Shown: positions 51,578-56,681 of the stretch, piece by piece
Position numbering within the stretch: position 1 is the first letter of the stretch
How the letters are laid out: every line of letters begins with the position of its first letter
Source of the DNA: Myxococcaceae bacterium
Lineage (GTDB): Bacteria; Myxococcota_A; Polyangia; Polyangiales; Ga0077539
Reading direction: 5' to 3'
Length of the DNA: 64,000 bases
NCBI GenBank assembly: GCA_004297725.1
Contig: SCUS01000195.1
Location: 62,001-126,000 of the forward strand
Made by a program: the position numbers and the translations under genes
Notes under the pieces: generated by a model
The model's input: the letters and a program-made list of their open reading frames with translations, nothing else
Database searches by the model: none
Told to the model about the DNA's origin: nothing

Positions 51578-52150
51578 ATGGCGAAGGCCCAATCACCGCT
51601 GCTCGGCTACAACACGAACATCCGCCACAAGGGCAAGGTGTTCCACATCCAGACCGAGGACTCCGGGGTCCTGAAGCCTCACGTGATGACCCACCTCTTC
51701 GCGGACGGCGGGCGCATCCTGAAGTCGCTGAAGACCAGCTATGCGCAGCTCCTCGAGACCGAAGACCTGTCCTCGCAGGTCAAGAAGCTCATGCAGGACC
51801 AGCACAAGGCGATGTTCCTTGCGCTGCGCGAGGGGCAGTTCGACGAGGTCGCTGGGCTCAACGTCGCGCCGACGCCCGACCCGGTGGAGTCGGACATCCC
51901 CACCGGGGAGACCAACACCGTCCCCCCGGCGGCGCCTACGCCGTTGAGCCCCAACGCGGCGGTGGTCGTGCTGCCGCCGCCGCCCCCGCGGTCCAACCTT
52001 CCCCCGGCGCCGTCGAACCCTCCTGCGCAGATCCCGGTGGTGGTGGCCCGGCCCGCGATGTTCGGGGAGGTGTCGATCTCCGAGCGCTCCCTCGACGAGG
52101 TGATCCTGGCCTTCCTGGCCGAGGAGCTCGAGGCCTCTCGCGCCGGCTGA
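51578..52150 (+). CDS. Conserved myxobacterial hypothetical protein with Pro-rich linker
   Basis: A 190-residue soluble protein. The N-terminus LGYNTNIRHKGKVFHIQTED followed by SGVLKPHVMTHLFADGGRIL is a beta-rich block I believe is conserved in myxobacteria. Then comes a helical part (SSQVKKLMQDQHKAMFLALR), a Pro-rich linker and a short C-terminal amphipathic helix (SLDEVILAFLAEELE). Function not known. Confidence 0.65.
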   Translation: MAKAQSPLLGYNTNIRHKGKVFHIQTEDSGVLKPHVMTHLFADGGRILKSLKTSYAQLLETEDLSSQVKKLMQDQHKAMFLALREGQFDEVAGLNVAPTPDPVESDIPTGETNTVPPAAPTPLSPNAAVVVLPPPPPRSNLPPAPSNPPAQIPVVVARPAMFGEVSISERSLDEVILAFLAEELEASRAG

Positions 52151-52154
52151 TCTC

Positions 52155-52168
52155 CGGGCGATCGCCCG
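52155..52168. terminator. Palindrome between convergent genes, possible terminator
   Basis: The 14-base palindrome CGGGCGATCGCCCG lies 5 bases after the stop of the plus-strand gene and 18 before the end of the sspB-like gene on the minus strand. The stem would be strong, but no T-run follows, so the role is inferred from position. Confidence 0.35.
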
Positions 52169-52185
52169 ATCGTATGTCGGCTGGA

Positions 52186-52806
52186 CTACTTGACGACGCG
52201 CAGCCAGGCGGGCCGCTCGCGTCCGCCCTTGCGATCGCCGGGCGTCGTCGGTGAAGGATCATCCGCCGGAGGATCGGACTCCTCCACGGCGGGCGCGGGC
52301 GTCGGCTTGATGGGAGTGACCGGGGCGAGCCTGGGGGCCTTGGTCGAGGGCACGGCGGCGATGCGCGGGCGCTGCGGGGCGGCGGAGTCGCTGGTCTCGG
52401 TGGTGGACTCCGCGGCGTCGGCGGAGCGTCCTCGGGCGTTGCGGGAGGTGGGCGGCGCGCGGCGGACGGGGGCGGGCTGCGGGACGAGCTCGGGAGGCAG
52501 CTCGGTGGGCCACACGGTGACCTGACCGTCTTCGGCGACCATGGCGTACACGGCGGTCCACGGGAGGTCGCAGAAGAAGGGAGAGCGGTTGAAGGAGAGG
52601 GTGCAACGCACGCCCCGGTCGTCGATCTTGAGGTCGGGGATGGGCACGGCGAAGTGGAGCCCGAGCTGCAGGACGAGCTGGGGTTTCTGCGCGTGCCAGG
52701 CCGGGACGACCACGCCCTCGACGCGCGGATCGAGGTGCAGGAACACGTTGCCGCGCTCGAGCAGTTTCTGGAGCTGTTCCTTCTTCGGCGGCGGCTCGAC
52801 GGACAT
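52186..52806 (-). CDS. sspB: SspB-like ClpXP adaptor
   Basis: A 206-residue protein whose first 105 residues match the SspB fold (FLHLDPRVEGVVVP, then LSFNRSPFFCDLPWTAVYAM and VAEDGQVTVWP). The C-terminal 9 residues are RPAWLRVVK, close to the ClpX-docking tail of E. coli SspB (RPALRVVK). A Pro/Thr/Glu-rich linker of about 90 residues lies between, longer than in E. coli. SspB binds the ssrA tag and delivers tagged proteins to ClpXP. The gene lies back to back with ssrA, 184 bases away, which fits the role. Confidence 0.88.
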   Translation of the reverse strand: MSVEPPPKKEQLQKLLERGNVFLHLDPRVEGVVVPAWHAQKPQLVLQLGLHFAVPIPDLKIDDRGVRCTLSFNRSPFFCDLPWTAVYAMVAEDGQVTVWPTELPPELVPQPAPVRRAPPTSRNARGRSADAAESTTETSDSAAPQRPRIAAVPSTKAPRLAPVTPIKPTPAPAVEESDPPADDPSPTTPGDRKGGRERPAWLRVVK

Positions 52807-52950
52807 CGGGGCCGTAGGTGCCTCAGCGTCGCCGACGGGTCAAGGGTTGCGCAACGGAGAGAGGTCGGAAGAGAGAGCGAAGACTTGACGTACCCGGGGG
52901 CGGAGGCTCAGAGTGCGCCGTGCGTTGGTGATCCACTGACTCTAAAGAGG

Positions 52951-52979
52951 CCTCCATACGGATGAAACCGTATTAGAGG
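52951..52979. other. Hairpin just upstream of tmRNA
   Basis: ATACGG (52956-52961) pairs with CCGTAT (52968-52973), and an outer CCTC (52951-52954) with GAGG (52976-52979). It ends 11 bases before the mature 5' end of tmRNA. It could be a protein-binding site or part of the precursor that RNase P removes. A -10-like TATTAG overlaps it (52971-52976). Confidence 0.35.
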
Positions 52980-52990
52980 TTTTCGACTTA

Positions 52991-53355
52991 GGGGGCGAAA
53001 CGGTTTCGACGTGGGTTGTGACGCGATCGATGGCACGACCGCCGGCCCGTAACGGCGTAAATACTGCGGGAATCAAGAGAAGCGAACGACAACGACGTTC
53101 CCTTCGCCGTCGCGGCCTAAGAACCCGTGACGCCGTGCTCCGACGAGCCTGCCAGTGCTTATCGGAGTGCGTAAATGAACTCGGCTGGCTTCACATCAGG
53201 GTGCCCCGGATGTGCGGCGAGATTCAGGGGGCGCTGGTTGGGTGGAGTGCCTGCCGATGAGCACGATACCTGACGAGAACTGATCATCGGCTATGTCGTG
53301 TAGAAGTCATCGTTGAGCACTTGCGGACCCGGGTTCGACTCCCGGCGCCTCCACC
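52991..53355 (+). ncRNA. ssrA: Transfer-messenger RNA
   Basis: The 5' end GGGGGCGAAACGGTTTCGAC is the tmRNA hallmark, and the 3' end has the T-arm GTTCGACTCCCGG and the acceptor GCCTCCACC. The acceptor stem GGGGGC pairs with GCCTCC (one G-U), and CCA must be completed after transcription because the DNA reads ACCC. The tag frame starts at GCG 53082 and ends at TAA 53118-53120, giving ANDNDVPFAVAA after the charged Ala. The tag ends AVAA rather than ALAA. tmRNA rescues stalled ribosomes; SspB-like and ClpXP would clear the tagged proteins. Confidence 0.97.
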
Positions 53356-53400
53356 CTCAAACCTCCTTGTTTTCAGCAGATTGACTGCGACAAGGGGTGT

Positions 53401-53434
53401 AACAAGCCCGACCGCTGACCCGGTCGGGCTTGTT
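53401..53434 (+). terminator. Rho-independent-like terminator of tmRNA
   Basis: A perfect 13-bp stem, AACAAGCCCGACC (53401-53413) with GGTCGGGCTTGTT (53422-53434), and an 8-base loop. It lies 46 bases after the end of tmRNA. Only a short T-rich tail (GCATTT) follows, as is common in GC-rich genomes. Confidence 0.8.
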
Positions 53435-53585
53435 GCATTTGGGGCAGCGCATCCTCATCGCGAAGGTCCGCTCGCAACGTCCCTCGTCCGCGCGTCAGCG
53501 GGAGGAGGTACAACCGCCGTTGCAGCCTGTGTGGGGCGCGGGAGATTGTCTGGCCCCCCGTCGCGGCTTCACAGGATTCGTTCAC

Positions 53586-56500
53586 ATGACTCGCCACGAC
53601 CGCGGCCTCTACGAGGTGCTCATCACCGAGACCCTCGACGCGCAGCTCCGCGACCTCGGCGATCGCCTCGAAGCTCGACGCGAGGGTCTCCGCTCGGCTG
53701 AGGCAGCAGACCGCGTCGCCCTCCACCTGGCGCGCGTCGTCCAGAGGGCTGTCGCCTCCGTCGACGACCGCGAGCGCGTGGCCGTGAGCATCGCCCTCGC
53801 GCGCCGACTGATCGCCGAGATCGAGGCGTCCATCACGGACGCGGACGCCCTTCCCGAGCGCCCGATCGAGCCAGGCGCCGTGCTGCACGCCATCACCGGT
53901 CGACGGCCTGACGGGAGCGCGGAGACGATCCCCGAGCCGCTCATCCCGCTGCTCGACACCACCCTCCTGACCAACGCGCCGGGCGAGCCGAGGGTGGGCA
54001 ATCAGGTCCTGACCGAGATCCTCTCCGCGGACCGCATCGATGTGGTGATGGCGTTCATCCGGCGCAGCGGCATCGCCCCGTTGCTCGGCGCGTTGCGCGC
54101 GCACTGCGAGCGGGGGCGCGAGCTGCGCGTGCTCACGACGACGTACACCGGCTCGACCGAGGCCCGCGCCCTCGACGCCCTGCGCGAGCTCGGCGCCGCG
54201 GTGCGCGTCTCGTACGACGCGAGCATGACCCGGCTCCACGCGAAGGCATGGCTCTTCCACCGGCGCTCCGGGTTCTCGACGGCTTACATCGGCTCGTCGA
54301 ACCTCACGCACTCCGCGCAGGTGAGCGGCCTCGAGTGGAACGTCCGTGTGTCGGGCGCGCGCAACCCCGACGTCGTCGACAAGGTCGGCGCCGTCTTCGA
54401 GAGCTACTGGAACAGCGGCGACTTCAATCCCTACCAGGCAGACGAGTTCGCGGCGCACACCGCGGCCCAGGCGCATCACGGAGCGAGCGTGACGCTCAGC
54501 CCGATCGAGCTGCGTCTCGAGGCCTTTCAGGAGCGCCTGCTCGAACAGATCGCGCTGTCACGCCTGCAGGGCCACCACCGCAACCTGCTCGTCTCCGCCA
54601 CCGGAACGGGAAAGACCGTCATGGCGGCGATCGACTACGCCCGCCTGCGTGAGGCGCTGCCCCGGGCGCGGCTGCTCTTCGTCGCGCACCGGGAGGAGAT
54701 CCTCGCACAGAGCCTCGCGACCTTCCGACACGGCCTGCGCGACCACGCCTTCGGCGAGCTCTGGGTGGGAGGGCGTCGGCCCCGGGACTTCGAGCACGTC
54801 TTCGCGTCGATCCAGAGCCTGCACGCGGGCGTGCTCGCGGAGCTGGCGCCGGACCATTTCGATGTGGTCATCGTCGACGAGTTTCACCACGCCGCCGGGA
54901 AGACCTACCGTGCGCTGCTCGAGCACCTGCAGCCGACGGAGCTGCTCGGGCTCACCGCGACCCCCGAGCGCAGCGATGGCCTCCCGGTGCTCGGCTGGTT
55001 CGGTGACCGAATCGCCGCCGAGCTCCGGCTCTGGGATGCGGTCGACCAGCACCGCCTCTGCCCCTTCGCGTACTACGGCATCCACGACGGCCTCGACCTC
55101 CGCGAGGTGCCGTGGCGACGCGGCCGCGGCTACGACATGGAGGGCCTTTCGAACCTCCTCTCGGCGAACGACGTGTGGGCGAGGTTCGTCCTCCAGCAGG
55201 TCGTCGCTCGGGTCGACAGGGTCGAGCGCATGCGGGCGCTGGGGTTCTGCGTCAGCGTCGCGCACGCCCGCTTCATGGCGCGAGTCGCCGTCGCGTCGGG
55301 CATCAGGGCGGTCGCCATCTGGGCCGACACGCCCGACGCCGAGCGCCACGCGGCGCTGCGCGACCTCGCGGACCGTCGGCTGAACGTGGTGTTCTCGGTC
55401 GACCTCTTCAACGAGGGCGTCGACGTCCCGAGCGTCGACACGGTGCTCCTGCTGCGCCCGAGCGACAGCCCGACCCTCTTCCTGCAACAGCTCGGTCGAG
55501 GGCTACGCCGGTGCCCCGGGAAGACCGTCTGCACGGTGCTCGATTTCGTCGGGCTGCACCGGGCGGAGTTCCGCTTCGACCGACGCTTCCGCGCCCTGCT
55601 CGGCGGGAGCCGCAAGGACCTCACCGCGCAGATCGAGGGAGGCTTTCCCTTCCTGCCCGCGGGCTGCCACATGGAGCTCGACCGCGTCGCCGCGGAGATC
55701 GTGCTTCGCAACGTGCGCGAGGCCGTTCCCTCGCGGTGGTCGGAGAGGGTCGACGAGCTACGACGCATCGCGGGGAGCGCGGGCCCGATCAGCCTGGCGG
55801 ACTACCTCGCGGAGACAGGCATCGAGCTCGATGAGCTCTACTCGGGCGGGCGGACGTGGTCCGACCTCTGCTCCGACGCCGGGCTCTCCGTGAGGGCGTC
55901 GGGGCCGCACGAGAAGGCGCTCCGCCGCGCCTGCGGGCGCCTGCTGCACACGGACGACTTGGTTCGCATCGAGGCGTACCGGGGGTTCCTGATGCGTGAC
56001 GCGGCGCCCGATCCGGAGGCGCTGCCGGTGCGAGAGCGACGCCTGCTGCGGATGCTGATCGGCGTCCTGGTCGACAAGGTCGTGACGAAATCCACGAAGC
56101 TCGCGGAGGGGTGCGCGCTGATCTGGGACCACCCCCAGGTGCGGGCGGAGCTCGTCGATCTCCTCGACGTCCTCTCGGGAACCATCGCGCACGTCGCCAT
56201 CCCTCTCGATGCCCGACCCGATGTGCCGCTCCAGGTGCACGCTCGGTATTCCCGTGTCGAGATCCTCGCGGCCTTCGGGGTCGGCGAGGGCGCGCGGGTA
56301 GCGCCCTGGCAGACCGGGGTCTATTGGGCGGCGGATGCAGCGTCCGACCTGCTCGCCTTCACGCTCGACAAGACCAGCGGGGGGTTCTCACCGACGACCC
56401 GCTATCGCGACTACGCCATCAGCCGAGAGCTGATCCACTGGGAGAGCCAGTCGAGGACCAGCGCCGAGAGCGAGACGGGTCAGCGCTATCAGCACCATCA

Positions 56501-56681
56501 GCGGAAGGGCAGCGAGGTGATGCTCTTCGCGCGCCTGCGCAGCGACGAGCGCGCCTTCTCGTTTCTGGGGCCTGCCACCTACGTGAGCCACGTCGACGAG
56601 TGCCCGATGGCCATCACGTGGAGGCTACGGCACCGGCTGCCCGGCGACCTGTTCGCCGCCTTCGCAGCCGCCGTGGCGTAG
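53586..56681 (+). CDS. PLD-nuclease/superfamily 2 helicase with DUF3427-like C-terminus
   Basis: A 1031-residue protein. Residues about 150-270 form a phospholipase D-type nuclease domain with one HKD half (LHAKAWLFH, His 218, and IGSSNLTHS). Residues about 315-660 are a superfamily 2 helicase: GTGKTVMA (about 340), DEFH (431-434), LTATPER and QQLGRGLRR. The end has FTLDKTSGGFSPTTRYRDYA and HWESQSRTSAESETGQRY, the DUF3427 pattern. Such proteins occur alone in genomes and some are suspected of phage defence; that is inference. The ATG at 53586 has AGGA upstream. Codon use is similar to neighbours. Confidence 0.88.
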   Translation: MTRHDRGLYEVLITETLDAQLRDLGDRLEARREGLRSAEAADRVALHLARVVQRAVASVDDRERVAVSIALARRLIAEIEASITDADALPERPIEPGAVLHAITGRRPDGSAETIPEPLIPLLDTTLLTNAPGEPRVGNQVLTEILSADRIDVVMAFIRRSGIAPLLGALRAHCERGRELRVLTTTYTGSTEARALDALRELGAAVRVSYDASMTRLHAKAWLFHRRSGFSTAYIGSSNLTHSAQVSGLEWNVRVSGARNPDVVDKVGAVFESYWNSGDFNPYQADEFAAHTAAQAHHGASVTLSPIELRLEAFQERLLEQIALSRLQGHHRNLLVSATGTGKTVMAAIDYARLREALPRARLLFVAHREEILAQSLATFRHGLRDHAFGELWVGGRRPRDFEHVFASIQSLHAGVLAELAPDHFDVVIVDEFHHAAGKTYRALLEHLQPTELLGLTATPERSDGLPVLGWFGDRIAAELRLWDAVDQHRLCPFAYYGIHDGLDLREVPWRRGRGYDMEGLSNLLSANDVWARFVLQQVVARVDRVERMRALGFCVSVAHARFMARVAVASGIRAVAIWADTPDAERHAALRDLADRRLNVVFSVDLFNEGVDVPSVDTVLLLRPSDSPTLFLQQLGRGLRRCPGKTVCTVLDFVGLHRAEFRFDRRFRALLGGSRKDLTAQIEGGFPFLPAGCHMELDRVAAEIVLRNVREAVPSRWSERVDELRRIAGSAGPISLADYLAETGIELDELYSGGRTWSDLCSDAGLSVRASGPHEKALRRACGRLLHTDDLVRIEAYRGFLMRDAAPDPEALPVRERRLLRMLIGVLVDKVVTKSTKLAEGCALIWDHPQVRAELVDLLDVLSGTIAHVAIPLDARPDVPLQVHARYSRVEILAAFGVGEGARVAPWQTGVYWAADAASDLLAFTLDKTSGGFSPTTRYRDYAISRELIHWESQSRTSAESETGQRYQHHQRKGSEVMLFARLRSDERAFSFLGPATYVSHVDECPMAITWRLRHRLPGDLFAAFAAAVA

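Follow-up and report, generated by a model that had tools for sequence, protein, structure and literature searches.

The genes of the ClpXP adaptor SspB (sspB) and of tmRNA (ssrA) stand back to back in the window, i.e., the whole stretch of 64,000 nucleotides that was analysed. We read them as two parts of one disposal route, brought together in an arrangement of single origin, with a tag front that has probably co-evolved with the class of SspB. We give this joint reading a probability of about 0.85. The co-evolution of tag front and SspB class, as suggested by sequence comparisons across Myxococcota, is a stronger result than the adjacency of the genes, and it is the co-variation, not the adjacency, that we take as evidence for adaptor and tag working together. 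The features of the locus are listed below.

52186–52806, minus strand: sspB, ClpXP adaptor of 206 aa (open reading frame; Pfam SspB match; AlphaFold2 model compared with solved SspB structures)
52486–52806, minus strand: predicted SspB tag-binding domain, residues 1–107 (pLDDT; VIA)
52216–52485, minus strand: linker, residues 108–197, Pro/Ala/Arg/Thr-rich, predicted unstructured (composition; low pLDDT)
52189–52215, minus strand: ClpX-docking tail RPAWLRVVK, residues 198–206 (kept in relatives)
52807–52990, no strand: head-to-head intergenic region (sequence; genus-wide conserved block next to the sspB start)
52885–52914, plus strand: ssrA promoter-like element TTGACG-N18-CAGAGT (genus comparison)
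52991–53355, plus strand: ssrA, tmRNA gene (ARAGORN; Rfam RF00023)
53082–53120, plus strand: tag reading frame ANDNDVPFAVAA and stop (ARAGORN, coding part 92–130 of the gene)
53395–53440, plus strand: strong hairpin, probable 3' end of the ssrA transcript (17-nt inverted repeat, 40 bp past ssrA)

The Adaptor and tmRNA Genes of the Window

Membership of the window protein in the SspB family was left open by sequence alone, since the Pfam SspB model (PF04386) matched it 1 bit under the cut-off (26.0 bits against 27, E 1.1e-5) and the NCBIfam SspB models matched it weakly. It is the single Pfam SspB match of its genome. Our family profile A2 matched E. coli SspB including the tail (8et3_Y, E 5e-12). 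The AlphaFold2 model, built from 37 sequences, had a mean pLDDT of 81–98 per 10-residue block up to residue 110 and low values beyond, and its linker was without secondary structure. In a Foldseek search against PDB, rows 1–19 (E 9e-6 to 1e-3) contained nothing but SspB structures and the homologue from Agrobacterium, and the next row had an E of 0.31. VIA gave Z-scores of 10.2–11.8 to SspB structures, with residues 1–103 aligned, and 4.9 to the next fold. The initial annotation had staked its case on the N-terminal domain, and this domain is indeed predicted to fold as SspB.

The domain is followed by a flexible linker and then by the C-terminal ClpX-docking tail, in the order expected of the family. 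The linker had been described as about 90 residues long and rich in Pro and Thr. The length is exactly 90, while the composition (19 Pro, 15 Ala, 10 Arg, 9 Thr) makes it Pro/Ala-rich and not Pro/Thr-rich. Retention of the tail RPAWLRVVK had been claimed as well, and the motif LR/LK[VL][VI]K ended 29 of the 30 relatives' frames examined (one with an extra Ser); the frame without it is L027, close to the end of its contig. The linkers of the relatives vary in length and sequence while the tail stays conserved. By predicted fold and conserved docking tail the window protein is a member of the SspB family, and we infer for it tag binding and a function with ClpX. Two SspB genes each were observed in the genomes G005 and G011, one of those in G011 with an internal stop, and in both genomes ssrA was located on a separate contig.

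The tmRNA gene of the window is intact, and two methods, ARAGORN and Rfam, agree on it. The covariance model RF00023 matched with 150.1 bits (gathering score 47, E 5e-59) over model positions 1–374, i.e., the full length, and ARAGORN read an in-frame tag containing the AND motif. Among the matches listed, this was the sole tmRNA of the genome over the Rfam cut-off. The hairpin behind the gene (-36.8 kcal/mol, z -4.8) was not equalled by any of 200 shuffles, and a long T run was absent from it. We also considered the 3' end of ssrA as an attachment site and rejected it, as its last 25 bases have no second copy in the window. A smaller hairpin, ATACGG..CCGTAT, was noticed at 52956–52973 in the probable pre-tmRNA leader, and four relatives have GCGG..CCGC at the same position. 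The loci L074 and L176–L180 carry a TTTGACA or ATTGACA stretch shortly upstream of the tmRNA start, which resembles a boxA antitermination site.

Two neighbours of the pair were noted. The gene at 51578–52150 (plus strand), convergent with sspB, encodes a protein with the N-terminal domain of RomY (NF053858, 116.7 bits against a cut-off of 50), RomY being a polarity regulator in Myxococcus. Directly past ssrA, at 53586–56681 (plus strand), lies a gene for a PLD-nuclease/helicase protein, matched by PADLOC as a type IV methyl-directed restriction enzyme with 875.5 bits.

Tag Fronts and SspB Classes across Myxococcota

Tags and adaptors were compared in 75 genomes, 15 from the window's order and 60 others. 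The latter were picked non-randomly before the tags were seen, and comprised 28 genomes with and 32 without a match to A1, the first phylum profile of SspB. Tags were read by ARAGORN, apart from two that were read from the sequence where ARAGORN gave none. The first classification already displayed a contrast, with AND[ND] tags in 23/28 genomes with an A1 match versus 2/32 without (ARAGORN readings). The A1 search was insufficiently sensitive: profile A2 found SspB in 4 of the 32 negatives, A3 found more, and A5 fixed class III. Altogether 9 of the 32 initial negatives were moved by these profiles, 3 to class II and 6 to class III, and all nine reclassifications were made after the tags had been read and favour the association.

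The final sorting gave three classes. Class I is SspB like that of the window; class II contains a stretch like DLDxSYPLDLTF or DLNPRxPLxLD; in class III a fused Cro/C1-like HTH at the N-terminus precedes an SspB-like domain with docking tail. Further members of class II are in the genomes G039, G120, G125, G144, G252, and G289. AND[ND] tags were found in 35 of 39 class I genomes. One of the exceptions, G287, has ANDN shifted two residues in (ATANDN...), and the other three are G022 (AKAPVANSNGMSLAVAA), G151 (ANTNGHIALAA) and G159 (ANTDSYALAA). Class II genomes had ANDS tags in 7/7 cases and class III genomes ANNN tags in 6/6, both classes having been delimited after the tags were read. The remaining 23 genomes, in which SspB was not found, had 3 AND tags, 4 ANN tags and 16 of other kinds, ADDN and AEDN among them. 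The three with AND (G245, G157, and G163) are from assemblies 87–90% complete, and other members of their families have SspB. In the families f26, f44, and f48 (loci L273, L275, L276, L278, and L279) SspB lacks a clear docking tail, and the tags still begin with AND.

Pfam matches of class III proteins were weak and under the cut-offs (HTH_3 best E 5.5e-4, SspB best E 0.012). The class III profile matched the profiles of classes I and II with probabilities of 96.8 and 99.5, respectively, the class II profile A3 holding one class III row itself, and its PDB matches were XRE-type regulators and Caulobacter SspB (2qas E 0.0085). Such HTH-SspB loci (L369–L381, L383, and L384) belong to several Myxococcota families, and none were found in viral contigs.

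Shared ancestry was controlled for on an RpoB tree, a quick tree without bootstrap covering 67 of the 75 genomes. In ten independent pairs, with figures being means over 200 pairings, the presence of class I/II and of an AND tag agreed in 6.5, opposed in 0.0 and did not differ in 3.5 (median p 0.016, range 0.016–0.125). The association of any SspB with a tag starting with AN was weak (median p 0.125). The co-variation might be explained without docking, as a by-product of common descent or of constraints on tmRNA. Such an explanation would suit class III, which changes a single time on the tree, and it gains from the late delimitation of classes II and III. Against it stand the independent pairs, none of which oppose, and the comparison of class II versus I with ANDS, where 3/3 independent pairs agree, too few for significance; these include a switch inside one family (G014 with class I and ANDN, G023 and G029 with class II and ANDS). 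We consider the by-product explanation quite improbable, and co-evolution of the tag front with the SspB class is the reading that we retain.

Head-to-Head Pairs in the Order

In the window the two genes point away from each other with 184 bp between them (52807–52990), just as initially annotated. It had also been proposed that the adjacency be looked for in other Myxococcota, and it was found to recur within the window's order. The order was sampled with 144 genomes of at least 70% completeness, drawn evenly from a larger group. By these searches, sspB was present in 132/144, tmRNA in 120/144 and both in 118/144. Among near relatives sspB was found in 34/37 and tmRNA above the cut-off in 35/37. 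In 43 of the 118 genomes the two genes share a contig and are no more than 20 kb apart; they stand head to head in 39 of these and are otherwise oriented in 4. The head-to-head pairs were spaced by 113–357 bp (19 genomes), 0.8–5.4 kb (16) or 8–12 kb (4), and those with the shortest spacing came from six families (f1, f4, f5, f9, f10, and f11). A set of 80 named loci, many from the same genomes as the sample of 144, had tmRNA near sspB in 21 cases, 19 of them head to head. In the Sorangium, Polyangium, and Minicystis loci there was no tmRNA inside the stretch kept around sspB.

The other 75 genomes were without a pair inside 20 kb on one contig, 67 having the genes on different contigs, where many assemblies are fragmented and some pairs thereby hidden, and 8 having them further apart. 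In several nearly closed genomes the distance was from 28 kb to megabases. Adjacency is therefore not required.

Chance adjacency in one genome as the whole story was rejected: head-to-head pairing within 400 bp is repeated across six families of the order, and the adjacency is more than chance. A weaker form of this idea holds that the genes were joined in an ancestor by chance or hitch-hiking and have simply not been separated everywhere yet. It agrees with the frequent loss of the adjacency, with the ordinary look of the intervening genes in several genera (judged by reading the sequences), and with the matches listed from outside the window's order, among which there was no adjacent pair. 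However, six families, found on either main branch that the RpoB tree shows for the order, have kept the genes directly head to head, and we regard passive persistence as somewhat unlikely. The pairing, lost in many lineages and unseen outside the order among those matches, therefore looks ancestral to the order and eroding, and by parsimony its presence on both main branches agrees with a single ancestral arrangement in decay since then. We take it as most likely that the head-to-head arrangement has one origin, no later than the ancestor of the window's order.

The Intergenic Region

A sign of co-regulation of ribosome rescue and proteolysis had been seen in the adjacency by the initial annotation. 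In that case an operator or overlapping divergent promoters would lie in the shared 184 bp, and selection would keep the pair together. The prevalence of the head-to-head orientation among close pairs, the short spacing in 19 genomes and a block adjoining the sspB start, conserved across the five genomes of the genus, would all fit. A generic sigma-70 scan of 52100–53600 gave no promoter above threshold; a weaker conserved element, TTGACG-N18-CAGAGT-like, became visible only by comparing relatives, with position and spacing identical in 5/5 genomes of the genus. Promoter matches were scored in 20 upstream regions, L180 on its plain upstream stretch as its sspB start was not located. Those directed toward ssrA were above shuffles (mean 7.60 vs. 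6.38), but those directed toward sspB were hardly so (6.75 vs. 6.41). No operator-like palindrome common to families was seen when the upstream sequences were read by eye, and the 184 bp, folded as RNA, showed no excess structure (z -0.22). Moreover, other genes have been inserted between the pair in several genera, and the two genes are apart in many relatives. An ssrA promoter is thus supported; an sspB promoter or a shared operator is not. The claim of co-regulation is so far unsupported: it is possible, but co-regulation together with selection that keeps the pair in place is unlikely in our estimate.

Discussion

According to the joint reading of back-to-back disposal parts, the route would begin with tmRNA freeing a stalled ribosome and appending (A)ANDNDVPFAVAA to its incomplete product. 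The front of the tag (A-A-N-D-N...) would be bound by the SspB domain, and the 90-residue linker would span the distance to ClpX, on which the tail RPAWLRVVK may dock. With ClpX then engaging the tag at its hydrophobic end, the protein would be degraded by ClpXP. In many lineages the head-to-head pair, once formed, would since have been pulled apart.

A broader reading is more tentative, and we put it a little short of an even chance. Myxococcota would possess several matched degron-adaptor codes, in which each of the three SspB classes goes with a tag front of its own (AND[ND], ANDS, and ANNN), and which have been switched more than once in the phylum; at the head-to-head sspB-ssrA locus a code would be passed on along with its reader. 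If this is true, HTH-SspB might be a ClpX adaptor able to bind DNA, tying the proteolysis of ribosome rescue to transcription, and the HTH fusions offer a testable link between the two. Recognition of the ssrA tag by an adaptor is known from a few Proteobacteria. Tags and adaptors that have changed jointly in nature give a direct test of co-evolution between degron and reader, and possibly orthogonal pairs might serve as tools for protein degradation.

Published accounts confine SspB to Proteobacteria, among which myxobacteria may then have been counted. In the open-access literature we found no account of a myxobacterial SspB, of sspB-ssrA adjacency or of HTH-SspB. As far as that literature was searched, the head-to-head locus, the pairing of tag and adaptor and the HTH-SspB fusion are new; the adaptor system itself is known.

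The closest known system is that of E. coli and Haemophilus influenzae. Their SspB (PF04386) is like the window protein in its (predicted) fold and in the order of domain, disordered linker and C-terminal LRVVK tail, and a tag starting with AAND, counting the alanine of tmRNA itself, is common to both systems. The window protein differs in that its domain has about 19–27% identity to these proteins, the Pfam score is just below the cut-off, and the linker has some 90 residues. In E. coli, sspB lies beside sspA. The window tag is without Tyr at position 7 (AANDNDV), in contrast to AANDENY of E. coli. PMC8512704 reports binding of SspB to degrons that carry AANDENY, the first half of the E. coli tag, and no binding to degrons that lack it. 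The SspB ortholog of Caulobacter crescentus (2qas, 2qaz) and the Agrobacterium homologue (2nys) share the fold (VIA Z 10.3–11.2), although their identity to the window protein is lower, 13–16%. It is the class III profile, and not the class of the window, that resembles Caulobacter SspB more than that of E. coli. The location of tig near clpXP (PMC7804408) is a comparable case, where conserved gene proximity was likewise taken as a pointer to a joint function in delivery to ClpXP; there the genes are those of a chaperone and a protease, whereas in the window they are those of an adaptor and a tag RNA.
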